From Saliphagus infecundisoli (GTDB lineage Archaea > Halobacteriota > Halobacteria > Halobacteriales > Natrialbaceae): DNA of 46,271 bases. The stretch is from NCBI RefSeq assembly GCF_020177375.1, contig NZ_JAIWHV010000028.1, positions 1-46,271 on the forward strand, given 5' to 3'. Position 1 is the stretch's first letter, and every line of letters begins with the position of its first letter. Both the position numbers and the translations under genes were made by a program. Of this stretch, positions 6,325 through 44,620 are shown piece by piece. The notes under the pieces are model-generated. The model ran no database searches and was not told where the DNA came from. It saw nothing but the letters and a program-made list of their open reading frames with translations.

Positions 6325-6678
6325 TTAGGCTGACGCCATGTTCCGGCAGGTCTCCGCACACTCGCGAAGGACCTCTGCACAGACCTGGCAGTGCTCGGCG
6401 TCGTGCTGCTCGCACTCGTCGGCACACGCTTCGCAGGCGTCGGCGGTGATCGCGGCAATATCCGTTCTATATCCTGAATCACGAGCCATGAACCGCGCGT
6501 GCATGCTTGCTAGGTCGGCCACGTCCCGGCAGAGCCGGAGACACTCGGCCATCTCCTCGCCGTCATCGGCACACTCGTCGGCACACCACTCGCACGCCTG
6601 GACACACTCAAGACAGCTGTCGATACACTCCTGCATCTCCTGGTTCTCGCTGACGTGGTCAATTTCGGTTAGTGCCAT
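6325..6678 (-). CDS. Cys-rich four-helix-bundle copper-binding protein (Csp-like)
   Basis: 117 aa with about 15 cysteines spaced as CxxxC and CxxC along helices (CIDSCLEC, CEWCADEC, CEACADEC, CAEVLREC). This is the pattern of the four-helix bundle copper storage family (PF03860, formerly called ferredoxin-like). Characterised members hold many Cu(I) ions in the core of the bundle. There is no signal peptide, so it should be cytosolic. The start at 6678 leaves an N-terminal helix MALTEIDHVSENQEMQEC typical of the family. It is the first of the minus-strand group leading to the SPW and GH15 genes. Its role as an intracellular copper buffer fits the copper content of the window. Confidence 0.92.
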   Translation of the reverse strand: MALTEIDHVSENQEMQECIDSCLECVQACEWCADECADDGEEMAECLRLCRDVADLASMHARFMARDSGYRTDIAAITADACEACADECEQHDAEHCQVCAEVLRECAETCRNMASA

Positions 6679-11041: not shown

Positions 11042-12046
11042 TTAGACCCCAAGCATCATTCGGAGCGACCCTCTGACTCCCATTGGTAGCCCGATGGCTC
11101 CGATGAAGAACGTCATGAGCCACCACCAGGTCCAGTTCAGTTCTCCCTTTGCATCAGCGAGATACCACACAATTCCTAGTGTGACAAGTAACTTGAGGAT
11201 GAACGTCGATCCCGAGAAGCCGGTCGCTTGATAGACGAGGTTCGTCACGACAAGCTTCGGCGAGTAGCCGAGGAATGTGACGCCAATGAGGTTCTGCGCT
11301 GCATCCCACATTTGCCCGAAGACGGCGAGCAGTAACAAGGGATGGCGGAGGTTCGCGACATCAACTATCTCTGCACTCCAATAATACAAGGCAGTAACGC
11401 CGAAGGCAATCCCCACCGTCGCGGCTGGGACCCAGAGACGAAGGGGGACTGACGTTGTCGTGCCGTACAGGAGTGCCCAGCTGATAGCACCAACCGCCCA
11501 GATAGTCCCGACTGTGCCGACCAGCGTTGGAATTAAGAGGACTCCTCTGTCACGGGTCACGGCTCCGACGCCGAGCACGATGACAGTGACGGCGGTGACA
11601 ACGAAGTAGATCGACGGCGTGATGAATAGGACGGCGTACTCTCCGAGTAGTCCGATATCCTCGAGTGCCCGCATTGCGCCGCCGGCGACAATGATCGGGG
11701 CGAATCCGTAGGCCAATCGGGCATCGAATGGGATGTTCAAGTGCTCGAGATACGCGCGCAGCCCGGGCAAACTGTACCCGACCGCTCCGATGTATATCAG
11801 TGTATTCACCGGATTGTACCCCCGGGCGGCGCGAATCCCTGCATGTGTCACAGGTTGGCCGGCGGCGTCAGCGACGACCGGTCCCCACAAATACTGCCAG
11901 ACGAAGCGATCGTAGATGAGCGTGGGGAAAGCGAGTAGTGCCGCACCGACGAGTACCATCGGGCCGAGAAGATACAGCCCCCACCACTCTCGAGAGCCAG
12001 TTTCAGGGAGGACCGTCTCGATCCGTCGAGTGAATGTGGTACTCAC
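11042..12046 (-). CDS. DUF63 integral membrane protein (intact copy in main copper cluster)
   Basis: 334 aa with about eight hydrophobic helices (for example LYLLGPMVLVGAALLAFPTLI, ALLYGTTTSVPLRLWV, LLLLAVFGQMWDAAQNLIGV, FILKLLVTLGIVWYLADA). It matches the archaeal DUF63 family (PF01889), which has no known function. Conserved-looking polar features within the membrane region are the GQMWDAAQN helix and the DAKGELN loop. Its start overlaps the stop of the 74-aa winged-helix gene by 4 bases, so it is the last gene of the lrp-copA-winged-helix-DUF63 transcript. Remnants of the same gene occur at 23941-24941 and 43327-43415, each time next to remnants of the same copper genes. This supports a role tied to copper handling (inference). 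Confidence 0.85.
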   Translation of the reverse strand: MSTTFTRRIETVLPETGSREWWGLYLLGPMVLVGAALLAFPTLIYDRFVWQYLWGPVVADAAGQPVTHAGIRAARGYNPVNTLIYIGAVGYSLPGLRAYLEHLNIPFDARLAYGFAPIIVAGGAMRALEDIGLLGEYAVLFITPSIYFVVTAVTVIVLGVGAVTRDRGVLLIPTLVGTVGTIWAVGAISWALLYGTTTSVPLRLWVPAATVGIAFGVTALYYWSAEIVDVANLRHPLLLLAVFGQMWDAAQNLIGVTFLGYSPKLVVTNLVYQATGFSGSTFILKLLVTLGIVWYLADAKGELNWTWWWLMTFFIGAIGLPMGVRGSLRMMLGV

Positions 12047-12267
12047 GGCTCATTCGCCTCGATTCGCCACGTCGTGCTCTTCGAGCGCGCCCACTGCTCC
12101 AGCGACACGTCCACGAGGTCATCCTGCAGTTGGCTGAGGTACTGCGCGACGGCTTTGGGTGACGCGTCAAGGTCGCGAGCGATCTCATGAGCCCGGATAT
12201 ATGTCGGTTCAGTTTCAGCTATCTCGAGCAGATACGTGCGGACCATTTGGCGTGTGATATTAGACAT
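12043..12267 (-). CDS. 74-aa winged-helix-like protein of the copA operon
   Basis: The sequence has an N-terminal helix (MVRTYLLEIAE), a helix-turn-helix-like stretch (IRAHEIARDLDASPKAVAQYLSQL) and a short C-terminal wing ending KSTTWRIEANEP. The shape is that of small haloarchaeal winged-helix proteins of unknown function. It sits 20 bases after the copA stop and overlaps the DUF63 start by 4 bases, so it is co-expressed with both. It could be a small DNA-binding modulator of the operon. A truncated copy in the second cluster keeps the same C-terminus. Confidence 0.75.
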   Translation of the reverse strand: MSNITRQMVRTYLLEIAETEPTYIRAHEIARDLDASPKAVAQYLSQLQDDLVDVSLEQWARSKSTTWRIEANEP

Positions 12268-12287: not shown

Positions 12288-14894
12288 TTAGCGCAGTCGG
12301 CCTAGCAGTTCGTAGTCGTGGTCGGGCGTGTAGCGGCGGAATAGCAGGCTATTCGACAGCACGGATACCGACGAGAACGCCATCGCTGCCGCGGCCAATA
12401 CCGGCTGTAGGAGGCCAAGCGATGCCAGTGGGATTAGGGAGGTATTGTATCCGAGCGCCCACACGAGATTCTGCTTGATCTTCTGAAGTGTTGCGTCCGA
12501 GATACGGATGGCTTTCACCACGTCAAGTGGATCGTCGCGCATTAATGTGACATCCGCGGCTTCGATGGCAACGTCCGTCCCTGATCCAATGGCCGTCCCG
12601 ACGTACGCGACTGCGAGGGCCGGCGCGTCGTTGACGCCATCGCCGACCATCATGGCTTGCCGTCCTTCGTCCTGAATATTCTCGACCGCGATGGATTTGT
12701 CCTCGGGAAGCACCCCCGCACGGACGTTGTTCGGGTCGATACCCACTTGCTCGGCGACCGCGCGAGCGGTTCGCTCGTTGTCGCCCGTGATCATCATCAC
12801 ATCGATACCGCGCTTCTGAAGAGCCGTCACTGCCTGCTTCGAGCTGTCCTTCACCGTGTCGGCGTCGGCGACGACGCCCACGAGTTCACTCTCATAGGCG
12901 ACGATCATCGCTGTTTTGCCCTCGTTCTCGAGGCGTTCCATCGTCTCCTCGGCAGGCGAGGGATCGATGCCGTTGTCTCGCAGCAGCTTGCGGTTTCCGA
13001 CCAGCACTTCGCTCTCACCAACTGTCGCCCGGATTCCGTGGCCGGGGACGTTCTCGAACTCGTCGGGTTCGGTCACGTCCAGCCTGCGTTCTTCAGCACC
13101 GTCAACGATCGCTTGGGCGAGTGGATGCTCACTCCCGCTTTCGGCTGTCGCTGCCAGCCGAAGCACATTGTCCTCGGAAAGACGGTCACGGGAAGTAAGT
13201 TGTCCACCATCTGGTGTCGGTTCGCCGCCATCAGTCACTGCATTCCCATCGCTATCGAAGACGACCACGTCAGTCAGCTCCATTTCGCCTTCAGTGAGCG
13301 TACCCGTCTTGTCGAAGATCACAGTGTCAACGTCCTTTGCCCGTTCGAGGATATCACCACCCTTGAACAGGACACCGTTCTGTGCACCGATGGTTGTTCC
13401 AACCATCGTCGCAGCAGGCGTCGCCAGCCCCAGTGCACAGGGACAGGCGATGAGGACGGCGGATGCAAACACGATAACAGCGAACTCAAAGACTGAAACG
13501 GTACCACCGACTGGAGCAGGGCCGCCAGCGACTTGTCCCCACAGCGGGAGCCAGTCGACGAAGCCAGCGAGAGTTTCGGGGAACAGGAACCAGACGATGC
13601 TCCAGAGGAGCGCGTTGGCGATGACAGTGGGGACGAAGTACGCGGAGATACGGTCCGCGAGATTCTGGATGTCTGGCTGGCGGGATTGCGCTTCCTTGAC
13701 TGTCTGGACAATTTGCTGGAGCGCAGTGTTCTCTCCGACCTTTGTCGCTTGGACGATAAGGACGCCGTTCTCGTTGATCGTTGATCCGACGACCTCATCA
13801 CCTTCTTCCTTTTCTACGGGAACCGACTCGCCGGTGACCATCGACTCGTCGACGGCAGACTGGCCGTCGACGACAATCCCGTCGGTCGGGATCTTCTCAC
13901 CAGGGCGGACTTTCATTCGGCCACCGACCTCGACATCTTCGAGTGGGATTTCTTCCTCGTCCCCCTCATCGTCGACGACCGTGGCCGTCTCGGCCTCCAT
14001 CTCGAGGAGCTTCTGGAGTGCTTCCCCCGCTTGGCCTTTCGAGCGGGCTTCGAGGTAGTTCCCTAGCGTAATGAACACTAAGATGAGTGCGGCCGTGTCG
14101 AAGTACAGACCGCCAGCGATGAGACCAACCAGTACGACTACGCTGTACACGTACGCCGTGGACGACCCCAGGGCGATGAGGACGTCCATGTTGGCCCGCT
14201 TGTTCTTCACGAGTGCCTTGTAGGAGTTCTTGTAGAACTGCCAGCCGAGGATGGCCTGAACGGGCGTTGCCAGCAGGAACTCGACCCAACCAAACTCAAC
14301 GCCGAAGACGGCCTCCGGCAGGTACCCACCGCCGAGCAGGTAATTCTCAACAATGAAGAACAGCAGCGGGATCGACAGCACTGCCCCGAACACCGTCAAC
14401 CGAAACTGCTTTCGAATCTCGGCCTGTCGAGCGGCGTCTCGTCGCTCTTGATCGGACTCCTCGCTGTCGCTGTCCTCGCGAACAGCCGTGTAGCCCGCGT
14501 CCTCGATCGCGTCGTAGAGCGAGTCCCGGGAGACGTCCGCCGGATTGTACTCGACCTGTGCCTCGTCGGTGGCGTAGTTCACCTCTGCCTTAATGACACC
14601 AGGAACACTCTCGAGAGCGTCCTCGTTGGTGTCAGCGCAGTTCGCACACGTCATATCCGAGATGCCGATCGAGACCGTGGCACGCTGGGGCTCGTAGCCG
14701 GCATTCTCGATGGCATCGTAGATCTTAGCTAGCGATACCTCGTCCGGGTCATACTCGACGGAGCCCTCGTCCGTGGCGAAGTTGATATTCGCCTCCACGA
14801 CGCCCTCGAGTTTCTCCAAAGCATCCGTTATTGTCTGTGAGCAGTTCGCACAGCTCATGCCCTGGATTTCCAGGTGGGTGGTTTGCCGACTCAT
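12288..14894 (-). CDS. copA: Copper-exporting P1B-type ATPase CopA with two HMA domains
   Basis: 868 aa. It pumps Cu(I) out of the cytoplasm using ATP. Two N-terminal heavy-metal domains carry GMSCANC (Cys15, Cys18) and DMTCANC (Cys83, Cys86). The eight-helix core has the transport motif CPC at 484-486 ([11 protein letters not shown]), the actuator TGES at 354-357, the phosphorylation site DKTGT at 528-532 and the hinge [10 protein letters not shown] near the end. The CPC type is the Cu(I)/Ag(I) subgroup. It lies 87 bases downstream of the Lrp-TRASH regulator, with an inverted-repeat operator candidate between them. The 74-aa winged helix and DUF63 follow. Only a start fragment survives in the third copy of the cluster, and nothing in the second. 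Confidence 0.97.
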
Positions 14895-14963: not shown

Positions 14964-14978
14964 CTTTTGAATCGAAAG
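14964..14978. promoter_or_regulatory. Candidate copper operator upstream of copA
   Basis: CTTTTGAATCGAAAG is an inverted repeat 70-84 bases before the copA start. It is closely related to CTTTGGAATGAAAG before the HMA gene (15637) and to the sites before the two other HMA copies. A second, shorter palindrome, CTTTCTGAAAG, lies at 14927-14937. The likely binder is the neighbouring Lrp-TRASH regulator (inference). Confidence 0.5.
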
Positions 14979-14981
14979 TGA

Positions 14982-15563
14982 TCAGACGCCCTCTTCGAGG
15001 CGGTTGTACCGCTCTTTGAACCGGCTTTGACAGGATGGACAGCAAAAGTGATACACCTGACCGTCCAGACGAGCCGATCGGCCCTCACTATCGACGGTAT
15101 TGTTACATTCTGCACAGGTGAGTGCGAACTCGGTACCGTCCAGCGACGGTCGCCATTCAATGTCGTCCATCAGCGTCACCATATAGCCGATGTCGTCGTC
15201 AAGAAGTCCATCGAGCCACCGACGGACGTTCTGGACCTGGGCGCGGGCGTAGAACCAGATCTCACCGTCGGCCGTGACGAAAAGGTGCTCAACGGCATCG
15301 GCGTCCCCAACGCGGTCTTTGAGTCCGTCAACATCGTCTGCGCCCATCACCTGGACGAAAATCGGAATGCCAGCGTGAAGCTGCGATCGGTCTACGTCGA
15401 CAGTAAACCGATTGATGATACCAACTTCCTGGAGACGGGTGACGCGGTCGGAAACGGCCGGACCAGAGAGGCCAACGACCTCGCCGATGGCGCTAAACGG
15501 ATGTCTGGCGTTCTCGCCCAATAGCGTGAGAATTTCCATGTCGGTCTCGTCCAGATCTCGCAT
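14982..15563 (-). CDS. Lrp/AsnC-type regulator with C-terminal TRASH metal-sensing domain
   Basis: 193 aa from the ATG at 15563, chosen because MRDLDETDMEIL is the normal Lrp start. The upstream extension in the same frame covers the promoter repeated in the other copies. The N-terminal winged helix (SAIGEVVGLSGPAVSDRVTRL) is followed by an Lrp-type alpha/beta domain (VEHLFVTADGEIWFYARAQ). The C-terminal TRASH zinc-finger-like domain has CAEC and HFCCPSC. TRASH domains of this kind sense copper in archaea, and Lrp-TRASH proteins regulate copA in haloarchaea. It lies directly upstream of copA and is divergent from the HMA chaperone, so it probably controls both. Decayed copies are at 25054 and 43721. 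Confidence 0.92.
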   Translation of the reverse strand: MRDLDETDMEILTLLGENARHPFSAIGEVVGLSGPAVSDRVTRLQEVGIINRFTVDVDRSQLHAGIPIFVQVMGADDVDGLKDRVGDADAVEHLFVTADGEIWFYARAQVQNVRRWLDGLLDDDIGYMVTLMDDIEWRPSLDGTEFALTCAECNNTVDSEGRSARLDGQVYHFCCPSCQSRFKERYNRLEEGV

Positions 15564-15690
15564 ATAGAAAGGTTGGTCTCCACAGCAATAATCCAACGGA
15601 TAGTACTTACGCCTGCAATGGATCACACATCATCAACTTTGGAATGAAAGCAGAAAACGACAAAAAATGGGATCCCGTATCCCTACTTGT
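15564..15690. promoter_or_regulatory. Divergent promoter region between regulator and HMA chaperone
   Basis: These 127 bases separate two divergent starts and must hold both promoters. The inverted repeat CTTTGGAATGAAAG is at 15637-15650. The stretch from about 15612 to 15690 is recognisably preserved in front of the HMA copies at 25310 and 44423, although the coding sequences around them have decayed. This marks it as the control region. Confidence 0.55.
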
Positions 15691-15888
15691 ATGAGCCAGA
15701 CAATCACCGTAGAAGGTATGGCCTGCGAACACTGCGAGCAGACCGTTGAAGAGGCACTCGAAGACGTCGACGGCGCCACGAGTGCGAAGGCCGATCGAGA
15801 GACCGAATCAGCTACTATCGAGGGAGACGCAGACCCTGACGCGCTCGTTAGTGCAGTCGACGACGCTGGGTACGACGCTTCAGCCTAA
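15691..15888 (+). CDS. HMA-domain copper chaperone (CopZ-like)
   Basis: 65 aa, a single heavy-metal-associated domain. The start ATG at 15691 gives the standard beginning MSQTITVEGMACEHC. The Cu(I)-binding motif is GMACEHC (two cysteines), and the C-terminal half ends with the conserved DDAGYDA. It should bind Cu(I) in the cytoplasm and hand it to the HMA domains of CopA. It is transcribed away from the Lrp-TRASH gene through a shared promoter region. Its close relatives are the remnant at 25310 and the still open copy at 44423. Confidence 0.93.
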   Translation: MSQTITVEGMACEHCEQTVEEALEDVDGATSAKADRETESATIEGDADPDALVSAVDDAGYDASA

Positions 15889-16896: not shown

Positions 16897-19158
16897 CTAG
16901 TCGGCAGGCCGAGCGTCCGCAGACGGTGACACGCCCGGCAGGTTCGGTATCGAGAGGTCAACGCGGCGGAGTAGCTGGGCGTTGATCGCGACGATTACCG
17001 TACTTAGGGACATCAGGAGTGCGCCGACGGCGGGTGACAGCAAGATCCCAATAGGTGCGAGGATGCCAGCTGCAAGCGGGATGGCGAAGACGTTGTAGCC
17101 GGCGGCCCACACAATGTTCTCCTTCATTTTCCGGTAGCTCGCCTTGCTCAATTTCACGAGGCGGACCACGTCCATTGGATTGTTCTGTACGAGGATGACG
17201 TCCGCAGACTGGACTGCAACGTCGGTGCCGCTTCCGATGGCAATGCCGACATCTGCTCTGGTGAGTGCCGGTGCGTCATTAACGCCATCACCGACCATTG
17301 CGACGAGTTTGTCCTGATCCTGCAGCTCTTGGACTTTCTCGTCCTTATCCTCGGGCAACACCTCGGCGAACACTGTGTCAATGCCCAGTTCGTCAGCGAC
17401 GGCGTTTGCCACGTCACGAGAGTCGCCAGTCAACATTGCTACTTCGATGTTGAGGTCGTGGAGCGCGTCGACGACCCGGTAGCTCTCCTCGCGGATGACG
17501 TCCGCCATTGCAAAGGCGGCGATTAGGTCTCCCTCGCGGACGAGGTACACGACAGTATGGGCATTTTTACCGGCCTCATCAGCAAATGTCCGGAGTGCAG
17601 GCGGGATGTCGCTATCGAGATGGTTCAGGAGATTTGGGCCACCCACGTAGACCTCGTTACCATTGACGGTTGCACGAACACCTCGCCCCTTCATCGCCTC
17701 GAACTCGTCCGCATCAGGTGCACTAATTTCTCGTTCGTCGGCCGCTTGACGGATCGCCCGTGCAATCATGTGTTCGGAGTCACCTTCCACAGCTGCAGCC
17801 AAGGCCAGCGCTTCATCTTCCTCAATGTCGTCAACGGTCGCCATATCGACCACACCGTGTTCACCTTCGGTGAGTGTCCCCGTCTTGTCGAAGATGATTG
17901 CGTCAAGGTTTCGTGCCTCTTCCATAGCGATACGGTCACGGATAAGCATCCCATTGCGAGCTGCGAGTGACGTATTAATGGCGACGACGAGCGGAATGGC
18001 GAGCCCGAGTGCATGCGGACAGGCGATCACGAGGACGGTGACGACACGCTCGATAACCTCTGCGTTAAATGATACTGCAACGGTCCATGCGAGAGCAGTC
18101 ACGGCTGCCGCTGCAACGGCGACGTAGAACAGCCATCCAGCTGCACGATCAGCAAGTACCTGCGTCTTCGATTTGCTTCCTTGAGCTTCCTCAACGAGTC
18201 GCATAATACCTGCGAGAGTTGTCTCTTCGCCCGTCGCGCCGATTCGAATCCGGAGGCTCCCATCACCATTGATCGTTCCACCGATTACCTCGTCACCGGG
18301 CTCCTTCGAGACTGGGCGGGACTCACCGGTGATCATCGACTCGTTGACATCCGAGTCGCCGTCTTCAACGACACCGTCGGCGGGGACGCTCGCGCCTGGA
18401 CGAACGAGGACGAGATCACCTTCAGAGAGTTCGCTTACCGGAACTTCTTCGGTGTCACCACTCTCGGTAATCCGTTCGGCGGTGTCGGGCATGAGCTTCG
18501 CCAGTTCGTCGAGCGCACTCGACGCCCGTCGTACCGAGCGCATCTCGATCCAGTGACCAAGCAACATTATGTCGATCAGGGTCACGAGCTCCCAGAAGAA
18601 CGCCGACTGTGTCGGGAAGACCACGCTCGCGAGGCTATAGACGAACGCGACCGAAATTGCCATCGAGATGAGCGTCATCATCCCCGGGGAACGGTCTTTC
18701 AGTTCAGGAATCGCCATCTGGAGGAAGGGGACACCACCGTACGCGAAGACGATTATCGCAAAGACAGGGTTGATCCACTCGCTCCCGGGGAATGCTGGGA
18801 CAGAGAAGCCAAGCCAATCTTGCAGGGCTTCGCTGTAGAGGAGGACAGGAATTGAGAGAACTGTCGAAATGAAGAATCGGCGGCGGAACATTTGCTCGTG
18901 CCCTTCATGCATCCCGCCATGGTCACCGTGATCGTGCTCTCCATCTCCGTGATCCATATGGTGCTCGGAGCGTTCGTGCAGTTCCTGCTCGGCCTCGTCT
19001 ACATCCTCGGCTTCTTCCTCAAGCAGCGACTGTTCGGTCCGAGGAACATCCTCGTCTAGTTCGTCTTCGCTTTGAGTATTATGGTCATGGTGGCTACTGT
19101 GGTCCGGCGGTTGATTCGACGGATCCTCGGTGTCTTCTGAGTGGTTGTGATCGTCCAT
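16897..19158 (-). CDS. copB: CopB-type P1B ATPase with His-rich N-terminus
   Basis: 753 aa. The N-terminus (1-90) lacks an HMA domain and is instead rich in His, Asp and Glu ([22 protein letters not shown] at about 66-87), a likely metal-binding antenna. The core has TGES at 277-280, the metal motif CPH at 380-382 ([11 protein letters not shown]), DKTGT at 424-428 and [13 protein letters not shown] with a His-rich N-terminus marks the P1B-3 CopB subgroup, which characteristically exports Cu(II) or Cu(I)/Ag(I). It is minus strand, 88 bases upstream of the CBS gene. A third-copy remnant at 45197 keeps the CPH and DKTGT region. Its 440-base upstream gap should contain its own promoter. Confidence 0.95.
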
Positions 19159-19599
19159 AGATGGGTTTCTTAGGTACTAATTTGAACTCAAGGGTGTTGG
19201 GTGTAGGGGTTATCCGACATTAGCGTTGAACATCCCCCGACTCATGTTCTATCGGAAACACTCTCCAAGAACTGTGTCTTGTTCATCTCGATAGAATATA
19301 CGGTTTTTTCTTTGATTACATTTCCTGCTTATTTTCTAGCGTCAATTGTAGCGGTGGCTTTAGATTCCAAATCATTTCTCACCAAGTCATATGGGTAGCA
19401 GAATGAGCTGTCAGAGGGTCCACAGATGAACTGATCTGCCTTTATGATCTAACCATCTTCATCACTTGATATCGTGTATAAAAGGGGATATGTGTCAAAG
19501 TAACATGGTGGAAGCCCATTAGCGCTAGCAAAATAGATTCTCTTAATGTAGGGAATTACAGAACAAGTACTATCCTAGTAAAAATTGTTTCGATTCTTT
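19159..19599. other. Gene-free interval upstream of copB
   Basis: AT-rich and without a convincing frame on either strand. It should include the copB promoter, which reads leftward from about 19159-19250, and the 3' end of the channel transcript coming from the right. No repeat or hairpin stands out. Confidence 0.4.
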
Positions 19600-22098: not shown

Positions 22099-22746
22099 AA
22101 CCAGTGCAGATGCCTCATTAATTCGGAGCACGATGAATAATCAGCTATCTCGACGACACGTACTTGGGATAACTAGCGTAATCGTAACTGGGCTTGCCGG
22201 GTGCCTATCCGAAGACAACCAACCAGAGGACGATACCAGTCCAGACGAAAGTGCTGTTAACTCGAGCGAGGAAACCACTAATCAGACCGGTAGAGAGAGT
22301 TCGGACTCCGAGAACGAGAGCGACCACGACGAAACAGACAGCGCGTCTGAGAGTGCAGCCGAAGTGACTATGGTGACGAACGACTCTGGAACTCACTTTG
22401 AGCCTCATGTCGCTGAAATTGAACCCGGAGAGACAGTCACGTGGACACTCGAGAGCGGTTCTCATACGACGACCGCCTATGCACTGGCGAATGACAAGCC
22501 CCAGCGGGTTCCTGATGACGCTGAGGCATGGGATAGCGGGACAGTTGACGACCAAGGGGCAACCTTTGAACATACATTTGAAACCGAAGGAGTCTATGAC
22601 TATTACTGTCGCCCACACGAAACCACAGGGATGATCGGGTGCGTTGTTGTCGGTGATCCCCAGCTCGATGATCAACCTGGAATGGCTGAGCCGCAGTCTG
22701 AATTACCCGACGCTACTCACGAGAAGATCCGCGAACTGAATGAGAC

Positions 22747-23682
22747 GGATCTATTGAATCCACAGACTGCGTCGGGGTGAGTCGATAGAACGACAGAGAT
22801 GAAGCGGAAGAAGCCAGTTGTGGAAAAAGTCCTCTTCCGCTTCGTTAAACAGGCTGTCTCGATCGCACGAAAACTTACTGATGCTGCGGTGATGCAGGTC
22901 AGTCATCCTGCCGGCAACGGAGTTGCCGGCTGGAAGCACGCTGTCTTGCACTTTCTCCGGGTTCACATGGAAGCGACGCTCGTCGAGGTCATCGATTGGG
23001 CCGAAGAAATGGAGCGAGTACGAGCCGCGCTCGTCCTCGAGCGCGGCGAGTTCCCTGGCCCATCTGCGCTCTGCAAATCCTTCGACCGAGCACCGATGCG
23101 CATCTGGCGAGAGCTGCTCCGACTCTCGTCGGAGCTGCTCGATCAGAACGGTCACGCTGCCATCGACGCCACCTACTTCGACCGCCGACAGGCGTCGAAC
23201 CACTATCTCAAACGATGTGACCGAGACGTACAGACAGTGCAAACGACGTTCCTTGTCGATACCGCGCAGGGCGCGGTTATCGACGTCCACTGTAGCGCGA
23301 AGTGGCCCAACGGCACGAACATCGGCCCGCAGGTCGCTCTGCGAAACGCAGGCGACCTGCTCAGTCTCGCTGCTGACAAAGGCTACGACGACATGAGCTT
23401 CCGCGAACAGCTACGGGCTGAAGACGTCAGACCGCTCATCAAGCACCGCGTCTTCGCGCCGTACGATCACGCTCACAACGCGCGGATCGAAGACGACCTC
23501 TACAACCAACGGTCAATCTGTGAAACCGTGAACTCGGTGATCAAGCGCTCGTACGGCTCCGCCGTCCGAGCGCGGGCCTGGTACCGTCAGTTCCGAGAGA
23601 TCACGCTAACCGCCGCAGTCTACAACGTCGAACAGGCAGTCAAACAGTGAATCTCGCCGCCCTCTGCGGATTCAATAGAACC
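22747..23682 (+). mobile_element. Intact IS5-family insertion sequence in halocyanin copy 2
   Basis: A 936-base element. Its ends are imperfect inverted repeats, GGATCTATTGAATCCACAG at the left and, read inward from the right, GGTTCTATTGAATCCGCAG. It is flanked by the 9-base direct repeat GAATGAGAC at 22738-22746 and 23683-23691, a target-site duplication. One transposase gene fills it. The clean duplication indicates a recent insertion. Confidence 0.85.
22799..23650 (+). CDS. IS5-family transposase
   Basis: 283 aa, complete. The DDE catalytic residues are recognisable: Asp in AAIDATYFDRR, Asp in LLSLAADKGYDD, and Glu in SICETVNSVIKRSYG. It starts 52 bases inside the left end and stops 32 bases before the right end, normal spacing for this family. 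The element belongs to the haloarchaeal IS5 group, with an 8- or 9-base target duplication. The remnant at 21669 and the transposase at 30949 are related but distinct. Confidence 0.92.
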   Translation: MKRKKPVVEKVLFRFVKQAVSIARKLTDAAVMQVSHPAGNGVAGWKHAVLHFLRVHMEATLVEVIDWAEEMERVRAALVLERGEFPGPSALCKSFDRAPMRIWRELLRLSSELLDQNGHAAIDATYFDRRQASNHYLKRCDRDVQTVQTTFLVDTAQGAVIDVHCSAKWPNGTNIGPQVALRNAGDLLSLAADKGYDDMSFREQLRAEDVRPLIKHRVFAPYDHAHNARIEDDLYNQRSICETVNSVIKRSYGSAVRARAWYRQFREITLTAAVYNVEQAVKQ

Positions 23683-23940: not shown

Positions 23941-24941
23941 TCAAACCCCCAGCATCACCCCGAGTGATCCGCGAACGCCCATCGGCAGCTCGATCGCCCC
24001 GATGAAGAACGTCATGAGCCACCACTATGTCTGGTCCATCTCCTCTTTCGCATCCGCGAGGTACCAGGCGACTCCCACGGCCATGAAGAGTTTGAGGACG
24101 AACGTTGACCCGGCGAACCCAGTCACCTGGTACACGAAGTCTGTTACGACTAGTTTTGGCGAGTAGCCGAGGAACGTAACACCGATGAGGTTCTGGGCGG
24201 CGTCCCACATCTGCCCGAAGACAGCGAGCACAATCAAAGGATGCCGCAACGGCACACTCTCGATGGAGCCCGCTCCCCAGTAGTACAGGCCGGCCACCCC
24301 AAGTGCGACTCCCGTTGTCGCGACTGGTACCCACAGTCGAAGCGAAGCGGACGATGTTGTACCTTACCAAAAGGCCCATCCGACAGCACGGATTGCCCAG
24401 ATCGCTCCGACCGTACCAACTGTCTGAGGGACCGGAATGAATCTTTGATCACGGGTGAGTACTCCGATCCCGAGTGCGAAGATGGTGATCGGGATGACTG
24501 ACGAAGAGATCGACGGCGTGATGAACAGAACCGCGTAGTCTCCAAGCAGCCGATGTCCTCAAGCACTCGTATCACACCACCGGCGATAATGATCGGCGCG
24601 AACCCTTAGGCCGGTCGTACGTCAAACGAGACGTCCAAAGCATCAAGATACGCATGTAACCCGGGGTGGCTGTAGCCGACCGCAGCGAGATAGGTTAGCG
24701 TGTTCACGGTGTTGTAACCGCGGATGGCACGAATCCCCTCGTGCGCCACCGGTTGGCCGGCAGCGTCGGCGACGACCAGTCTCCAGAGATACTGTCCGAT
24801 GAACTGGTCGTAGACGAGCGTCGGGAATACGAGAAGCGCTGTACCGATGAGTACAACTGGAGCAAGCAGATATAGCGCCCACCATTCTCGGGTACTGGTC
24901 TCGGGGAGCGCAGTTTCGACGCGTCCGATGACGGTACTCAC
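23941..24941 (-). pseudogene. DUF63 membrane protein, second copy, decayed
   Basis: The N-terminal third is open from a GTG at 24941 (STVIGRVETALPETSTREWW to SHPGLHAYLDALDV) and then breaks. The C-terminal third reads HPLIVLAVFGQMWDAAQN to WYLADAKEEMDQT, then a stop in place of a Trp codon, then WWLMTFFIGAI to MLGV. It aligns along its whole length with the intact DUF63 at 11042. It carries at least two frameshifts and one nonsense change, so it is not functional. It is the left-most gene of the second copper cluster, as in the main one. Confidence 0.85.
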
Positions 24942-25053
24942 GATTCGCTCACCTCTACTCGCCACGTCGTGCTTTTCGAGCGCCCCCACTGTTCGAGTAA
25001 GATGTGAGTGAGTTCATCTTGGAGCTGGCTGAGGTAGTGCGCGACGGCCTTAG
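24938..25053 (-). pseudogene. C-terminal piece of the 74-aa winged-helix gene (second copy)
   Basis: The minus strand reads KAVAHYLSQLQDEL and EQWGRSKSTTWRVEVSES, equivalent to the end of the protein at 12043. It overlaps the start of the DUF63 remnant by 4 bases, as in the intact cluster. At about 25053 it joins directly to the C-terminal domain of an Lrp regulator, so copA and the front of this gene were deleted. Confidence 0.75.
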
Positions 25054-25236
25054 TCGATGTCGTCGTCAAGAAGTCCATCGAGCCACCGACGGACGTTCTG
25101 AACCTGGGCGCGGGCGTAGAACCAGATGTTACTGTCGGCAGTGACAAAAAGGTGCTCGACGGCGTCGGCGTCCTTGATACGGTCTTTGAGTTCATCGACG
25201 TCGTCTGCGCCCAACACCTGGACAAAATATGCCTGC
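25054..25236 (-). pseudogene. Middle fragment of Lrp-TRASH regulator (second copy)
   Basis: The minus strand reads YFVQVLGADDVDELKDRI, DADAVEHLFVTADSNIWFYA and RRWLDGLLDDDID, closely matching residues of the regulator at 14982. Both the N-terminal winged helix and the C-terminal TRASH domain are gone. Confidence 0.8.
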
Positions 25237-25309: not shown

Positions 25310-25470
25310 ATGAGTGGGCCAATCAGAGTAGAGGGTATGCTGCGAACACTGCGAGCAGGCTGTCGAGGAGGCGCTAGAAGACGTCGATGTCGTCATGAGT
25401 GCGAGTGCCGACCGAGAGGTCGAATCGGTTACTGTCGAGGGGAGCGCAGATACTGATGCTCTCGTCAACT
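25310..25470 (+). pseudogene. HMA copper chaperone remnant (second copy)
   Basis: From the ATG at 25310 it reads MSGPIRVEGM, then one base is missing before CEHCEQAVEEALEDVD and MSASADREVESVTVEG. It is cut at about 25470 where a hairpin-bearing insert begins. The frameshift falls inside the metal-binding motif, so no functional chaperone is made. Confidence 0.8.
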
Positions 25471-34104: not shown

Positions 34105-34602
34105 GTTAGAGGAGAAACTCAGTTAGTAGAGGTACTGAATTCTCTCATCTGTGTTTGTCGGGGTTACTCGTGGTACTGGATCGGGGACTGTGTTCCGTTC
34201 CATGAGCAGCATTGGGCCATGCTTGCCCCGATGACTCTCCACAACTGAGGGGATCGCACTTTGCCAATTCTCCGGGGTGGCAAAGATAAAATTTTGGCCA
34301 CTCTCAGCGATTCCCACCCCATGTCTCGGGGGACTCGCCGAACCACCAGCCGGAGTTGCGACCTTAATCCTTGTATCCGGTAAATCCCAATTTGTCTATT
34401 ATGATAAGAATGGAACCATATATATGACAAAATGGTGTGATGAAGAAGTTCAAAACCGATGTTGGCGAACTACTTCGGACGGAGAGCTCGTGACCAGCTT
34501 GCCGGCCACAACAGGTCATCCGAGACGCGTTCAAGAGCGACAGAGCGGGCCCGTAGCACGTCGAAACACTCTTAGCTGCTGGGGAGCCCACTATCTGCAT
34601 TG
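34105..34602. other. Gene-poor interval with a possible cell-wall-binding-repeat remnant
   Basis: On the minus strand, 34123-34317, a short frame reads FATPENWQSAIPSVVESH and GPMLLMERNTVPDPV, reminiscent of cell-wall-binding repeat 2 proteins (ENW-x-A-I, GP-x-LL). It is too short to be a gene and is rated weak. An AT-rich block near 34420 (CCATATATATGAC) may be the promoter for the DUF411 gene or a decayed spacer. Confidence 0.3.
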
Positions 34603-35133
34603 ATGCCCCGCTCTTCGCCACACGACGCCACAGACGCGGCGGACCTCAGTCGCCGCTCGTTTCTGGGCGCTGCTGGTATCGTTGCCGCGGGATTCTTCGC
34701 TGGCTGCCTCGGCTCGGACGAACCGTCCGAAGCCGAGGTCTCGCCAGCCGCTGCGTCCCTCCTTGACGGCGCGGTGCTCTACAGGTCCCCGAACTGCTCG
34801 TGCTGTCTCGAGTACACTGAGTACCTGGAGACGAACTCCGGCGTCTCCATTGATGTCCAAGAGGTCTCGGACCTCGCGGAGGTGCAAGACGAATATGCCG
34901 TGCCCAGAGACGTAGAGAGCTGTCACACGGTGAGCGTGGGCAAGTACTACGTTGAGGGCCACGTCCCGCTCGAAGCGATCAACGAACTCGCGGCGGAGAC
35001 GCCAGACGTCGCGGGGATCGCGCTCCCGGGAATGCCGGCGGGGTCGCCAGGGATGCCTGGAACGAAAGAGGAACCGTTCCTCGTTTATGCGACGTACGAC
35101 GACGGGTCATACGACAAGTTCGTGCGAGTTTAG
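34603..35133 (+). CDS. DUF411 metal-binding lipoprotein
   Basis: 176 aa from the ATG at 34603 (a TTG directly in front is less likely). A Tat signal (SRRSFLGAAG) and lipobox (FAGC) anchor it at the surface. The DUF411 domain (PF04214) is seen in VLYRSPNCSCCLEYTEYLE, with the family CxCC, and in DVESCHTVSVGKYYVEGHVP, with a further Cys-His pair. The C-terminal Met/Gly motif LPGMPAGSPGMPG is the family's usual metal-ligand-like stretch. DUF411 proteins often sit with copper resistance genes and are thought to bind copper. It is convergent with the multicopper oxidase. Confidence 0.9.
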   Translation: MPRSSPHDATDAADLSRRSFLGAAGIVAAGFFAGCLGSDEPSEAEVSPAAASLLDGAVLYRSPNCSCCLEYTEYLETNSGVSIDVQEVSDLAEVQDEYAVPRDVESCHTVSVGKYYVEGHVPLEAINELAAETPDVAGIALPGMPAGSPGMPGTKEEPFLVYATYDDGSYDKFVRV

Positions 35134-35198
35134 ACGGCGAACAACTGTCCGCGGATGAAATGGAGAGTGACGCTCCCTACTGAAATCTTCCGATACCG

Positions 35199-36653
35199 CT
35201 ATTCGTACTTGAACAGGCGGGCCATCCCGGTGTGGAGATGGTAGAGGTTGTGGCAGTGGAAGAACCAGTCGCCCGGATTGTCCGCGACGAAGTCCATCAT
35301 TCGCTGGCCCATGTGGCCCGGAACCGTCACGGTGTCCTGAAGCGCGCCCTTGACCACGAAGTGGTGTCCGTGGAGGTGCATCGGGTGGCGCATGGGGCTG
35401 TGGTTGACCACGCGAAGCCGAACGTGGTCGCCCTCCTTTATGTGAATTGGGTCCGCGTCCGGGTACACCTGCCCGTTGATCTGCCACTCGCCCTCGTCGC
35501 CACCCATCATCCCGCCAGTGGACAGGTCGACCTCGATCGTCTGGTCCGGTGGCCCATCGTACTGATCGAGCGCCCCGACGGCCGTGAGGTCGCCGTACTC
35601 GAGCCGTCTCGTGCCGACCGATTCACGGCGCGGCTCGTCGGCGTCGGACCCGTCGTAGTGGAGCAGCGTGCGCCCCGATGGCGTCTTGTCGTCAAGCGGG
35701 CGAGCGCGGATTTCCCACGTACCGGGCCGGTTAGCCTCGATCACTGCGTCGAAGCGCTCGCCCATCCCAAGGTCGAACGTGTCGACCTCGACCGGCTCGA
35801 CCGCCGGCCCGTCCGCGTGCGTTACCTGCATCGTGTGGCCGCTGACGCTGACGCGATGGCTCTTGATCGATCCCGCATTGAGGAATCGCAGCCGAACCCG
35901 CTCGCCGGCTTCGACCGAGAGGATGTCCGGGTCGCTTGGGAGCTTGCCGTTAACCAGCGTTCCGTCGTACGCCGGGCCGCCCGGGAAGCCGCTCATCATC
36001 CCCCGGTCGACCGACGTTATCTTTGGTTCGCCGGTGAGGTACTCGTCGACGACGATCGTGTGCTCCCGGTCGTACGCGACGTGCGGATCATTCTCCTCGA
36101 CGATCAGCGGCCCGAGCAGGCCGCGATCGAGCTGTAGCCCGACGTGGCTGTGGTACCAGTGGGTGCCCGTCGGTGCTGCGTCGAACTCGTAGACGAACTC
36201 TTCGCCCGGCTCGATCGATGGCTGCGTGACGCCCGGCACGCCGTCCATGGCGTTCGATCCCAGCTGTTTCATACCGTGCCAGTGAACTGTCGTCTCCGTG
36301 GGAAGTTCGTTGCGAATGGTGATCCGCACGCGTTCGCCTTCCCGGACCCGTAGCTCCGGGCCCGGATACTGGCTGTCGTAGAGCCACGTCTCGACGGTCT
36401 CGCCCGGTGCTGCCTCAATCTCGCCGGTCGTGACGGTCAGCTCGTACTCGCGGTCTGAACTTCCATAGGATGGCTTAGGGTTCGACCGTGGACCCTGCGA
36501 ATCCGATCGCGGATCATCGTTGGCTTCGAGATAACGCGTTGCGACGTAACCGGCGCCGCCCAAGCCGGTGGCGACTGCGAGCCCCGCTCCCACGACCGCT
36601 CGTCGAGTAACCCGGGACGTGCTGTTCGGCGGTGAGCCCGACGAATCGGTCAT
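35199..36653 (-). CDS. Multicopper oxidase, Tat-exported
   Basis: 484 aa, a two- or three-cupredoxin oxidase of the CueO/laccase type. It would oxidise Cu(I) or organic substrates with reduction of O2 to water. A Tat signal (TSRVTRRAVVGAG) without lipobox starts the protein. All four copper motifs are visible in order: HWHG, HWYHSH, HPMHLHGHHF and FHCHNLYHLHTGM (type 1 Cys followed by the axial Met). Met-rich spots (GMMSGFPGG, GGMMGG) may bind Cu(I). It ends 66 bases from the convergent DUF411 gene. Upstream on the same strand are the SHOCT and Lrp-TRASH genes, suggesting one copper-controlled block. Confidence 0.95.
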   Translation of the reverse strand: MTDSSGSPPNSTSRVTRRAVVGAGLAVATGLGGAGYVATRYLEANDDPRSDSQGPRSNPKPSYGSSDREYELTVTTGEIEAAPGETVETWLYDSQYPGPELRVREGERVRITIRNELPTETTVHWHGMKQLGSNAMDGVPGVTQPSIEPGEEFVYEFDAAPTGTHWYHSHVGLQLDRGLLGPLIVEENDPHVAYDREHTIVVDEYLTGEPKITSVDRGMMSGFPGGPAYDGTLVNGKLPSDPDILSVEAGERVRLRFLNAGSIKSHRVSVSGHTMQVTHADGPAVEPVEVDTFDLGMGERFDAVIEANRPGTWEIRARPLDDKTPSGRTLLHYDGSDADEPRRESVGTRRLEYGDLTAVGALDQYDGPPDQTIEVDLSTGGMMGGDEGEWQINGQVYPDADPIHIKEGDHVRLRVVNHSPMRHPMHLHGHHFVVKGALQDTVTVPGHMGQRMMDFVADNPGDWFFHCHNLYHLHTGMARLFKYE

Positions 36654-36735
36654 CGGTCGGCGAGATCGAACCCGTTCTGGGCGGTGACGATCGACACTTC
36701 GGAAGCTGGCCCCGATCGACGGTCGAAGGCCGTCT

Positions 36736-37092
36736 TCATTGCTCGCCCTCGCTCGTTATCTGTTTCTTCCGGTTCACGTACTCCTCTTCGTCGATCTCGC
36801 CGTGGGCATAGCGCTTGTCGAGAATCTCCAGAGCGCTCTCTCCCGTGGCGTCAGCCGCGGACTCACCAGCTGAGCCGTCGCTCGAGGAGCCGAAGAGCTG
36901 GGAGTAGAGCCAGTACACCCCGCCGGCCAGAGCCAGCAGGACTAGGATCCAGAAGACCATCATCAGCAGCCACATCATCATTCCCATCCCGCCCCACATG
37001 CCCCCATCCATCCCGTTCATCTGGAGCGGTAGCTGGCTGGTCGCCAGCTCGCCCATTCGACCGCCGAAAGCCGCCCGGAGTGCCTGTCTCAT
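36736..37092 (-). CDS. SHOCT-domain membrane protein, Met-rich
   Basis: 118 aa. The N-terminal half has a Met/Gly-rich stretch (GMDGGMWGGMGMMMW) leading into a single membrane helix (WLLMMVFWILVLLALAGGVYW). The C-terminal part is the SHOCT motif (ALEILDKRYAHGEIDEEEYVNRKKQI), a short domain common at protein ends and thought to mediate assembly. It lies between the second Lrp-TRASH gene and the multicopper oxidase on the same strand. A surface Cu(I)-binding role is possible from the Met content (inference). Confidence 0.85.
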   Translation of the reverse strand: MRQALRAAFGGRMGELATSQLPLQMNGMDGGMWGGMGMMMWLLMMVFWILVLLALAGGVYWLYSQLFGSSSDGSAGESAADATGESALEILDKRYAHGEIDEEEYVNRKKQITSEGEQ

Positions 37093-37174
37093 GTAATACC
37101 TCTATGTACACCGTATTTAACCATATTCCCATTTAGAAATCAAACCGTTGCACTGTACCTGGGCACGCCGGCGA

Positions 37175-37768
37175 TCAGGCGTTCTCGCGGAGCTGTTCGT
37201 ACTTCGCCTCGAAGTCCGCTTCGCACCGCTCGCAACAGAAGTGATACAGCGTCCCGTCGATCTGGGTCTCGACCCCATTCTCGCTGACGACCTGGTTGCC
37301 GCACGTGGTGCACTCGACAGAGAACTTGACGTCGTCAATTGATGGGTCCGTCCTCGTATCCGCAAGGAGCTTCACCTCGTACGCGGAGTACTGCGGTTCC
37401 CTGAGCGTCTCAGCGACGAGCTCGTGGACGTCGTTGGGGCGACAGGTAGCCAGCACAATCGCGTGTGCGTCGGCCGTCATGTGGACCGTGTGGACGCCCT
37501 CTCGCTGCTTGAACGCGCGAGCGACGTTGTCGACGGTGGATGCAAACGTGTCGATGTCTATCAGCACCGACACGCCCTCGTTGAGGATCGACCGGTCGAG
37601 ATCGAGCGTGAATCTGTGGATGACGTCCAGCTTGCGGAGGCGTTCGACCCGATTGGTCACCGTCGGCTGAGAGACGTCCGCCCGCTCGGCGATCTCGCTG
37701 TACGACCGGCGGGCGTCTTCGTTGAGGAGCCGCAGGATTTGGATGTCGACTTCGTCGAGGCCGCGCAT
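37175..37768 (-). CDS. Second Lrp/AsnC-TRASH copper-type regulator
   Basis: 197 aa. Winged helix (EIAERADVSQPTVTNRVERL), Lrp ligand-type domain (GVHTVHMTADAHAIVLAT) and TRASH domain with CTTCGNQ and HFCCERC. It has the same architecture as the regulator at 14982 but a clearly different sequence, so the two are not recent duplicates. It sits upstream of the SHOCT and multicopper oxidase genes on the same strand and probably regulates them. The start ATG at 37768 gives the typical MRGLDEVDIQIL. Confidence 0.92.
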   Translation of the reverse strand: MRGLDEVDIQILRLLNEDARRSYSEIAERADVSQPTVTNRVERLRKLDVIHRFTLDLDRSILNEGVSVLIDIDTFASTVDNVARAFKQREGVHTVHMTADAHAIVLATCRPNDVHELVAETLREPQYSAYEVKLLADTRTDPSIDDVKFSVECTTCGNQVVSENGVETQIDGTLYHFCCERCEADFEAKYEQLRENA

Positions 37769-42119: not shown

Positions 42120-42851
42120 TCACGACTCGAACCCTCCGTCAGGTATGCCGGTTGTTGGGTTCTCTTCAGGGGAGGTAGAAGACCGCTGAATCTGGACCTT
42201 CTTCACCCGGGTGGCGAGGGCGAGGAACGTCGCCGCAAGTGTGAGCGCCACTGCTGCCGCCGCGGCGAGATCGTGGGCTCGCAGGGAATGATCGAGTGTC
42301 GTGCCAACGAGTTCGGCCCATAAGAACGTGTGGTGATAGTTTCCGGCCAACGGGATGAAATAGTCCACGAGATCGTTGAATCCGTACCAGATGGTCGCGG
42401 CTGCGACGGCCCGGATTGGAAACGTCGCGTATCGATAGATCACGAACGCCTGCAGAGCCATCGCCAGATGGCTAACGACCAGGAACACGTAGAGCCAGGG
42501 CGAAATACCCTCGGGGCCGTTGAGCACGAGCTGGACGTACGTCGTCCAGATACCGAGTTTGATATTCCCGTAAAATGCGAATGCGTGAAGCCACTCCTGC
42601 GTGTAGTCGAGTTTCCACGCGGTGAGACTAAGTGCCATGAACAACGTCGCTACAGGGCTGTCTGGGACGACTGGCCACATCATAAGTGGAGTCTGAGCGA
42701 ACTGGAAGCGATAGTACCAAAAGCCGAACACGGTTCCCGCGAGATTGATCGCCACGATGACCCATGCGTACCGGAGCGCGATGTCTTCGATACGCTGTGG
42801 GAGTGGTGCTAGGTAGGTAGGCAGACGGGCTGACTGTGTTGGAGTTGGCAC
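42120..42851 (-). CDS. DUF1405 membrane protein
   Basis: 243 aa from a GTG at 42851. This start avoids overlap with the upstream gene, which stops at 42860, and keeps the family's beginning (RIEDIALRYAWVIVAINLAG). Five to six membrane helices are visible, with WPVVPDSPVATLFMALSL, FYGNIKLGIWTTYVQLVL, VSHLAMALQAFVIYRY and NDLVDYFIPLAGNYHHTFLW. This agrees with PF07187 (DUF1405), whose function is unknown. A His-His in NYHHTF and the His in VSHLAM are within membrane regions. It is coupled to the Met-rich gene upstream. Confidence 0.82.
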   Translation of the reverse strand: MPTPTQSARLPTYLAPLPQRIEDIALRYAWVIVAINLAGTVFGFWYYRFQFAQTPLMMWPVVPDSPVATLFMALSLTAWKLDYTQEWLHAFAFYGNIKLGIWTTYVQLVLNGPEGISPWLYVFLVVSHLAMALQAFVIYRYATFPIRAVAAATIWYGFNDLVDYFIPLAGNYHHTFLWAELVGTTLDHSLRAHDLAAAAAVALTLAATFLALATRVKKVQIQRSSTSPEENPTTGIPDGGFES

Positions 42852-42859
42852 GATAATAG

Positions 42860-43324
42860 CTACATCCCGGAATCGTTTGTGCGTCGATTCGTCATGATGA
42901 GCCCGCTGATAAGCATCAGGACCGCAAGGGCCACCATCCCGAGATCCCACCCCATCCCTGCGGTCACCGTTGAGCCCATACTATCCCCCATTCCACCGTT
43001 CATCCCCGATTCCATACCACCGCCCATTCCCATCCCCCAGTTCGCACTTCCGGTGACGCCCACTAGTATCTGATTGAGCAGCATCAACACCGAATAGCCA
43101 ATCATCAGCGGGCCACTCGCATTCCCGAGTCGGTCCGCATAGGGTGTTAGCAATACGACGCCGTGAACCACAATCACCACGCCGAGGAACGCCATCAGGA
43201 GGCCACTATTCGAGCCCATCATCCCACTACCGCCTATCACCGCAAGAAGCGAGTAAAGGCCCGAAATTAGTGCGATTGCTGCACCGTACTGCCGTGTCGT
43301 ATTGTTCGTATTCATCAAATCCAT
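42860..43324 (-). CDS. Met/Gly-rich membrane protein
   Basis: 154 aa; MNTNNTTRQYG at 43315 is a likely alternative start. Four hydrophobic helices are visible: AAIALISGLYSLLAVIGGSG, LLMAFLGVVIVVHGVVLLTP, LMIGYSVLMLLNQILVGVTG and LGMVALAVLMLISGLIMTN. Between the last two is an outward-type loop packed with Met (WGMGMGGGMESGMNGGMGDS), a pattern typical of Cu(I)-binding loops. It is followed by the DUF1405 gene 8 bases later. Upstream it directly abuts a DUF63 remnant of the third copper cluster. A role in copper uptake or buffering is an inference. Confidence 0.65.
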   Translation of the reverse strand: MDLMNTNNTTRQYGAAIALISGLYSLLAVIGGSGMMGSNSGLLMAFLGVVIVVHGVVLLTPYADRLGNASGPLMIGYSVLMLLNQILVGVTGSANWGMGMGGGMESGMNGGMGDSMGSTVTAGMGWDLGMVALAVLMLISGLIMTNRRTNDSGM

Positions 43325-43326
43325 TA

Positions 43327-43415
43327 TTAGACCCCCGACATCATCCGAAGTGGCCCTCTAATACCCATTGAAAGCCCAGTCGCCCCGATGAAGAACGCCA
43401 TGAGCAGCCACCAAC
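43327..43415 (-). pseudogene. DUF63 C-terminal remnant (third copy)
   Basis: The minus strand reads WLLMAFFIGATGLSMGIRGP and MMSGV before the stop at 43327, matching the last 30 residues of DUF63 at 11042 (WWLMTFFIGAIGLPMGVRGS, MMLGV). Everything before that is deleted up to the copA start fragment. Confidence 0.75.
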
Positions 43416-43419
43416 CGTG

Positions 43420-43484
43420 ATTGTCTGCGAGAAGCTCGCACAGCTTATCCCCTGAATCTCCAGGTGAGTGGTGCTCTGATTCAT
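43420..43484 (-). pseudogene. copA N-terminal remnant (third copy)
   Basis: From the ATG at 43484 it reads [17 protein letters not shown], equivalent to [17 protein letters not shown] of CopA at 12288, and is then fused to the DUF63 remnant. About 3.7 kb (most of copA, the winged-helix gene and most of DUF63) is missing between the two. Confidence 0.75.
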
Positions 43485-43720: not shown

Positions 43721-44294
43721 TCAGGCGTCCTCTTCAAGGCAGTAGTGCCTGTCCTCAAACCGGCTCTGACACAACAGAAGTGATAGACTCGACCATCAAG
43801 CTGGGTCGACTGGCCCTCGCTGTCGCCGATATTGTTCTACACTCTACGTAGGTGAGTGTGAACTCGGCACCGTCGAGCGACGGTCGCCATTCAACGTCGC
43901 CATCAACGTCACCGAGTAGTCGCCATCGTCGTCGAGGAGACCATCGAGCCACCGACGGACGTTCTGGACCTGAGCGCGAGCGTAGAACCAGATCTCACCG
44001 TTAGCTGTGGTGAAGAGGTGTTCGACGGCGTCGGCGCTCCCAATTCGATCTCTGAGTTCGTCGTCATCGCTTCCGCCCATCACCTGAACGAAGACTGGTA
44101 CACTGGCGTGGGGCTGGAGCCGGTCCACGTCGACAGTGAATCGGTTGATGATTTCAGCGTCCTAGAGACGAGTAACGCGATCGGAAACGGCCGGGCCAGA
44201 GAGGCCTACAACCTCGTCGACACCGCTAAACGGACGCTGAGCGTTCACGCCTAAGAGCACGAGAATCTCCATGTCTGTTTCGTATAGATCTCGT
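43721..44294 (-). pseudogene. Lrp-TRASH regulator, third copy, decayed
   Basis: Segments in order on the minus strand: ETDMEILVLLG, VVGLSGPAVSDRVTRL followed by a stop, FTVDVDRLQPHASVPVFVQV, DAVEHLFTTANGEIWFYA, RRWLDGLLDDDGDY, then frame changes through the TRASH cysteines to TGA at 43721. The initiator ATG is also lost. It is clearly derived from the regulator at 14982 and sits between the copA and HMA remnants, as expected. Confidence 0.82.
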
Positions 44295-44369
44295 AAACAC
44301 CGACGTTGGCCTCTGCTATCATGATTCAATATACTGTGCTTATGCCTGAAATAGGATCGACACCACTCA

Positions 44370-44383
44370 CTTTGGAATCAAAG
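44370..44383. promoter_or_regulatory. Copper operator candidate, third copy
   Basis: CTTTGGAATCAAAG, a perfect inverted repeat around GAAT, lies 40-53 bases before the HMA gene at 44423. Compared with the 15637 site it is even more symmetric, although the adjacent regulator gene is dead. Confidence 0.5.
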
Positions 44384-44422
44384 CAGAAACCACAAAGAAT
44401 GGTCTCCCGTATCTATGCCTGT

Positions 44423-44620
44423 ATGAGTGAGACAATTAGAGTAGAGGATATGATCTGCGAACATTGCGAGCAAACTGTCGAGGAGTCGCCAGAAGATGTC
44501 GACGGTGTCATGAGTGCGAGTGCCGACCAAGAGGTCGAATCGATTACTGCCGAGGGGAGCGCAGATACTGACACTCTCGTCAGTATAGTCAATGACACTG
44601 GCTGCGATGCCACAGGGTAA
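44423..44620 (+). CDS. HMA copper chaperone, third copy (open frame)
   Basis: 65 aa, MSETIRVEDMICEHCEQTV to NDTGCDATG, uninterrupted. It keeps the CxxC (CEHC), but has Asp-Met-Ile in place of the usual Gly-Met-x, Pro in EESPEDVD and a Cys near the end where the family has Tyr. This suggests relaxed selection. With a preserved operator candidate it may still be expressed. Whether it is functional is uncertain; all its neighbours are dead. Confidence 0.7.
   Translation: MSETIRVEDMICEHCEQTVEESPEDVDGVMSASADQEVESITAEGSADTDTLVSIVNDTGCDATG

Follow-up and report, generated by a model that had tools for sequence, protein, structure and literature searches.

The window, that is, the whole stretch of 46,271 nucleotides from Saliphagus infecundisoli analysed here, carries one intact copper operon. 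In it copA is followed by a gene for a 74-aa winged-helix protein (wHTH) and by a DUF63 gene, with a gene for an Lrp-TRASH regulator upstream and a divergent gene for an HMA metallochaperone (Table 1). The DUF63 protein matched Pfam profile PF01889 with 136.3 bits (gathering cut-off 25), covering profile positions 13-269 of 269, and the wHTH matched PF23438 (DUF7123) with 33.2 bits (cut-off 27). The true start of the Lrp-TRASH gene is likely at 15563. The original prediction had the wHTH gene placed 20 bases behind copA and coupled to DUF63 by a four-base overlap, and both junctions read accordingly: 20 nt separate the copA stop codon from the wHTH start, and the TGA of the wHTH and the GTG of DUF63 share the bases GTGA. 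Hardly any space is left within copA-wHTH-DUF63 for an additional promoter.

Table 1. Positions of the intact copper operon and of the relic copies of the copper cluster in the window.
Feature	Coordinates	Strand	Remarks
DUF63 protein, copper-operon clade	11042-12046	minus	334 aa, GTG start
Winged-helix protein (wHTH, DUF7123)	12043-12267	minus	74 aa, between copA and DUF63
copA, copper P1B-type ATPase	12288-14894	minus	two N-terminal HMA domains, CPC motif
Palindromic operator-like site CTTTCGATTCAAAAG	14964-14978	minus	upstream of copA, position conserved across loci
Lrp/AsnC-type regulator	14982-15626	minus	C-terminal TRASH domain (HVO_1752 type)
HMA-domain metallochaperone	15691-15888	plus	divergent
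Second DUF63, relic	23944-24938	minus	frameshift and in-frame stops
Second wHTH, relic	24944-25057	minus	codons 36-73 only, first 35 gone
Second Lrp-TRASH, relic	25074-25226	minus	residues 90-140, deletion-fused to wHTH relic
Second HMA gene, relic	25335-25469	plus	residues 9-53 only
DUF1405 (LhaT-family) protein	42120-42950	minus	intact, in third decayed copy
Met-rich membrane protein	42860-43324	minus	154 aa, intact, in third copy
Third DUF63, relic	43330-43431	minus	residues 296-334 (last 39 codons)
Third copA, relic	43416-43484	minus	first 23 codons
Third Lrp-TRASH gene, relic	43730-44353	minus	
Third HMA gene	44426-44614	plus	probably decaying

In 29 loci, a palindrome close to CTTTGGAATCCAAAG, with 2.9 mismatches on average, was found at a distance of 84-88 bp upstream of copA, and similar palindromes were often present also in the HMA/lrp promoter. 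In the window, the degenerate form of the palindrome gave 12 matches against 1.6 expected, some of the matches being one site counted on both strands. The CTTTGGAATCCAAAG-like palindrome is likely an operator of a copper regulon, and it is the putative operator of Lrp-TRASH. Palindromes of this kind were seen also at 44370-44384, in the HMA/lrp promoter of the third relic, and at 19358-19372, about 200 nt upstream of a second P-type ATPase gene (16897-19158).

Two further copies of the copper cluster, delimited by tblastn and by self-alignment of the window, are decayed. The DUF63-wHTH pair had been predicted to recur in the second copy with the same overlap. The GTGA is indeed still readable there, but the copy is a relic from which copA has been deleted and in which both genes of the pair are broken. 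DUF63 had been reported from the third cluster as well, where only its 39 terminal codons remain. The intact membrane gene of that cluster was ruled out as DUF63, since its product matched DUF1405 (PF07187) with 164.6 bits (gathering cut-off 25), and it was probably this gene that was mistaken for DUF63. The third relic retains the Met-rich gene and DUF1405, both of which are missing from the end of the intact operon.

The window is rich in transposases and includes several duplications, one of them being a pair of near-identical genes for Tat-lipobox cupredoxins (halocyanin-like) at 569-1312 and 22133-22780, with 93% identical DNA over 676 bp. A further copper cluster at 34600-37768 encodes a DUF411-like lipoprotein, a multicopper oxidase, a SHOCT-like protein and an Lrp-TRASH regulator of a second type. 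It is without DUF63, which is present in its counterpart on contig C31 of the same genome. The Cys-rich DUF326 protein encoded at 6325-6678 (Pfam, 30.9 bits) presumably resembles the cytosolic copper-storage proteins.

The DUF63 clade of the copper operon was represented in 40 of the 391 haloarchaeal genomes by 43 full-length genes with identities of 76% or more. By coordinates, the wHTH gene adjoined all 43 and copA 42 of them, the remaining locus (L101) having a copA split by frameshifts. The GTGA overlap was retained at nearly every wHTH/DUF63 junction read, and the gap between copA and the wHTH gene was 17-22 nt in nearly all loci. The sole apparent exception was Halobellus rufus (L055), where our own reading of the sequence placed a transposase-like ORF immediately upstream of DUF63. 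Several loci of the clade are located on annotated plasmids. Because many of the loci belong to related plasmids, the locus counts overstate independence, and the fairer figure is the 23 distinct loci to which the 39 three-gene loci were reduced by removal of near-copies. Among these 23, the protein distances of DUF63 were correlated with those of CopA (r = 0.76) and of the wHTH (r = 0.84), with a permutation p-value of 0.0001. The dN/dS values of DUF63 and the wHTH, 0.08-0.29, indicate purifying selection. Membership of the DUF63 clade and the wHTH in the copper operon, as suggested by the original prediction, is strongly supported by the constant position behind copA-wHTH (43 of 43), the purifying selection, the divergence that tracks CopA and the promoter palindrome.

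CopA, the TRASH regulator and the HMA chaperone are common to this operon and to the haloarchaeal copper module of H. salinarum (yvgX-VNG1179C) and H. volcanii (HVO_1752 type). In H. salinarum, deletion of CopA results in sensitivity to copper but not to nickel (PMC6978704). Compared with this standard module, the operon has in addition the wHTH, DUF63 and often the Met-rich protein and DUF1405, and is found mostly on plasmids or small contigs, whereas most related copA genes are without the wHTH and DUF63.

Across Halobacteria, the expected linkage of DUF63 to copper genes held for this one clade, always linked to copA, but generally not for the other paralogs. Each of the 116 sampled haloarchaea had two DUF63 genes or more, as a rule two chromosomal paralogs, and the canonical loci examined had generally no copper genes nearby, one locus (L119) being exceptional with a copA operon at a distance of 3-6 kb. 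Since these divergent paralogs are universal in the sample and generally unlinked to copper, one clade has been recruited, and the family as a whole is not a copper family. Another intact copper-linked DUF63 gene, the product of which is 54% identical to that of the window, was present on contig C31 among genes for Lrp-TRASH, a multicopper oxidase, DUF411, cupredoxins and a secreted Met-rich protein. On this contig, a secreted Met/Cys-rich protein is encoded shortly downstream of the DUF63 gene (L065:5366-6082). The copper clade joined the C31 paralog in the tree with full support, but its stem was very long, at 3.1 changes per column, because of which the activity of the clade may have shifted.

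At least one DUF1405 gene was found in every sampled haloarchaeon. Together with the two or more DUF63 genes per haloarchaeon, this fits a core pathway plus an extra plasmid copy. The two chromosomal DUF63 genes fit also the pair AliA and AliB, which are putatively DUF63 proteins: the two paralogs in H. volcanii are matched by at least two DUF63 genes in each sampled haloarchaeon, whereas the copper clade comes as a further, divergent paralog. Lipidation of lipoproteins in Haloferax requires both AliA and AliB (PMC12186497, PMC13251419). A search of NCBIfam gave no match to a DUF63 model, and no DUF63 was found in viral contigs.

The wHTH shows a tighter link to copA than DUF63 does. It stays behind copA, sometimes truncated, in loci without DUF63 (L125, L126, L127, L131, L133 and L134), and the Met-rich gene comes immediately after it in L125, L132 and L134. 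Several lines without DUF63 were nested in the CopA tree among lines with it, which fits a loss of DUF63. As the wHTH has no Cys, it is probably not itself the metal sensor. No copper genes were seen near its chromosomal DUF7123 relatives (35-46% identical), and thus DUF7123 is not a copper-specific family either. These patterns bear also on whether DUF63 could be a passenger that hitch-hikes on a successful copper plasmid without any role in copper handling. Lineages that keep copA without DUF63 would agree with such a passenger, as would the many near-identical copies among the 39 three-gene loci, but we regard it as very improbable in view of the 23 loci that remain distinct, the purifying selection, the conserved GTGA coupling and the sister paralog on C31, which occupies a second copper-cluster location.

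The idea that DUF63 takes part in copper export or sensing as a membrane partner, with which the analysis began, received no positive support. The DUF63 of the window has no Cys, and the family alignment showed no conserved metal-ligand motif of the CxxC, MxxxM or HxxH type. The family-invariant residues (D60, R126, E129, D130, D248, K264, R325 and R329) are shared with the generally copper-unlinked paralogs. Three methionines, M125, M322 and M330, are invariant in the aligned representatives of the copper clade, including the C31 paralog, at positions where L, P or A is the commonest residue in canonical DUF63. They form no recognisable motif and were not adopted as a copper site, being only three of 36 clade-specific changes. 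The structure model was poor for the window DUF63 (pLDDT 57) and moderate for a canonical one (pLDDT 69, pTM 0.69). Foldseek and VIA-align gave no convincing relative for either, the models being too weak for identification of the fold. Lgt was absent from the matches, which excludes nothing, and a PDB sequence search gave no match.

It is therefore unlikely, in our judgement, that DUF63 is a membrane partner of CopA with a role on the outer side in accepting, channelling or sensing Cu(I). The invariant linkage to copA would agree with such a partner, the three methionines offer weak hints at the residue level, and in more than half of the distinct loci the next gene encodes a Met-rich membrane protein. 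Against this stand the missing Cys and ligand motif, the invariant residues common to copper-unlinked paralogs, and the related copA-wHTH operons that have lost DUF63, according to which CopA does not need it. Furthermore, the next downstream genes belong to families of lipoprotein- or isoprenoid-modifying enzymes.

These downstream genes were tallied in 22 distinct loci, the window not counted. Behind DUF63, 12 loci had the Met-rich gene and DUF1405, one had the Met-rich gene alone, five had a gene for a geranylgeranyl-reductase-type FAD enzyme, two had DUF411 and two had nothing recognised; both DUF1405 and the Met-rich gene were missing from nine. In its full form elsewhere the operon reads copA-wHTH-DUF63-Met-rich protein (hyp154)-DUF1405, with DUF1405 last. 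In copper operons the Met-rich protein is conserved at its place between DUF63 and DUF1405; it includes the stretch NWGMGMGGGMESGMNGGMGDSMG and matched no Pfam or NCBIfam family. The reductase-like product gave 29.5 bits with GGR_cat (cut-off 27) and 105 bits with TIGR02032, the latter below the cut-off of 158.8. In Haloarcula marismortui pNG600 the gene following DUF63 (L012:13802-14977) is geranylgeranyl-reductase-like and annotated only as an NAD(P)/FAD oxidoreductase. Homology between DUF63 and DUF1405 was rejected at the sensitivity of hhalign (probability 0.1%).

In Bacillus, LhaT (YpjA, DUF1405) has been shown to N-acetylate lipoproteins with acetylated polyprenylglycerol, an archaeal-type lipid, as the donor, and it has been placed, as one branch, in a lipid-metabolising superfamily (PMC12345273). 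The DUF1405 protein of the operon shares the Pfam family with LhaT of Bacillus subtilis and matched the NCBIfam LhaT model NF052528 (4e-28, 98.8 bits), but it remained below the equivalog cut-off of 255 and sits with copA and DUF63. By sequence it is a homolog of LhaT, not filed as LhaT proper. With a strict lipobox pattern, nine matches in 235 kb near copper clusters stood against three in 332 kb, a weak enrichment among related loci that carries little weight.

The downstream genes could also mean that DUF63 and the genes around it serve a general remodelling of isoprenoid lipids or quinones in the membrane, as repair of copper or oxidative damage, and do not act on lipoprotein N-termini. 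The reductase-like enzyme as the alternative downstream gene and the superfamily of LhaT would agree with this, as would the appearance of HVO_2859, a DUF63 gene of Haloferax, in a tabulated set of genes at binding sites of OxsR, a regulator of oxidative stress (PMC9426492). However, the lipoprotein activity of DUF1405 is experimentally established in Bacillus, and Tat-lipobox copper lipoproteins are present in these clusters, if in small numbers; general remodelling is accordingly given a low probability.

The best reading is that DUF63 is an enzyme tailoring lipoproteins or isoprenoid lipids, induced along with copper export, and we consider its chances about even. It is preferred because of the downstream LhaT-family and reductase genes, the Cys of halocyanin, the lgt2-lit2 precedent and the Ali paralogs. 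Against it count the long stem of the copper clade, the nine distinct loci without DUF1405 and the Met-rich gene, the LhaT score below the equivalog cut-off and the failure of the structure searches to give a fold match. In halocyanin, a haloarchaeal blue copper protein, the Cys is diphytanylglyceryl-modified and N-acetylated (PMC2945643). On mobile elements of Listeria and Enterococcus, copper-induced lit2 is co-transcribed with lgt2 and copper-resistance genes (PMC8275575).

Under this tailoring model, lrp-TRASH, copA-wHTH-DUF63 and the divergent HMA chaperone gene would form one copper-responsive unit. At high copper Lrp-TRASH would act on the palindrome, CopA would export Cu(I), and the wHTH would serve as an operon-specific DNA-binding co-regulator. 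DUF63 of the copper clade would be a membrane enzyme of the outer face that acts on isoprenoid lipid, on the N-terminal Cys of lipoproteins with a Tat lipobox, or on both, and DUF1405, acting together with it, would N-acetylate that Cys. Such a copper-induced extra tailoring set could prevent copper from binding to surface lipoproteins at the S-lipidated N-terminal Cys with its free amino group, and/or mature the cupredoxin and DUF411 lipoproteins produced under copper stress.

As counterparts in the bacterial copper elements, DUF63 may correspond to Lgt2 and DUF1405 to Lit2. By analogy, both systems would place extra lipoprotein-modifying membrane enzymes inside a mobile copper-resistance operon, with the Lgt2 and Lit2 families there and DUF63, DUF1405 and archaeal lipids here; the bacterial operon is copper-induced, and the haloarchaeal one is predicted to be. 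It is conceivable, at somewhat less than even odds, that a copper-induced set of a DUF63 lipidation-type and an LhaT-type enzyme with a dedicated wHTH evolved on haloarchaeal plasmids independently of bacterial lgt2-lit2. If so, bacteria and archaea would share, by convergence, the protection of lipoprotein N-termini as a general component of copper resistance, and DUF63, an uncharacterised archaeal membrane family, would gain a testable chemistry. The lipoprotein reading, if true, would link copper toxicity to archaeal lipoprotein N-termini, as already proposed for Gram-positive bacteria, suggest an origin for the archaeal lipoprotein N-acetylation known from halocyanin, and mean that unrelated enzymes have converged in mobile copper operons.
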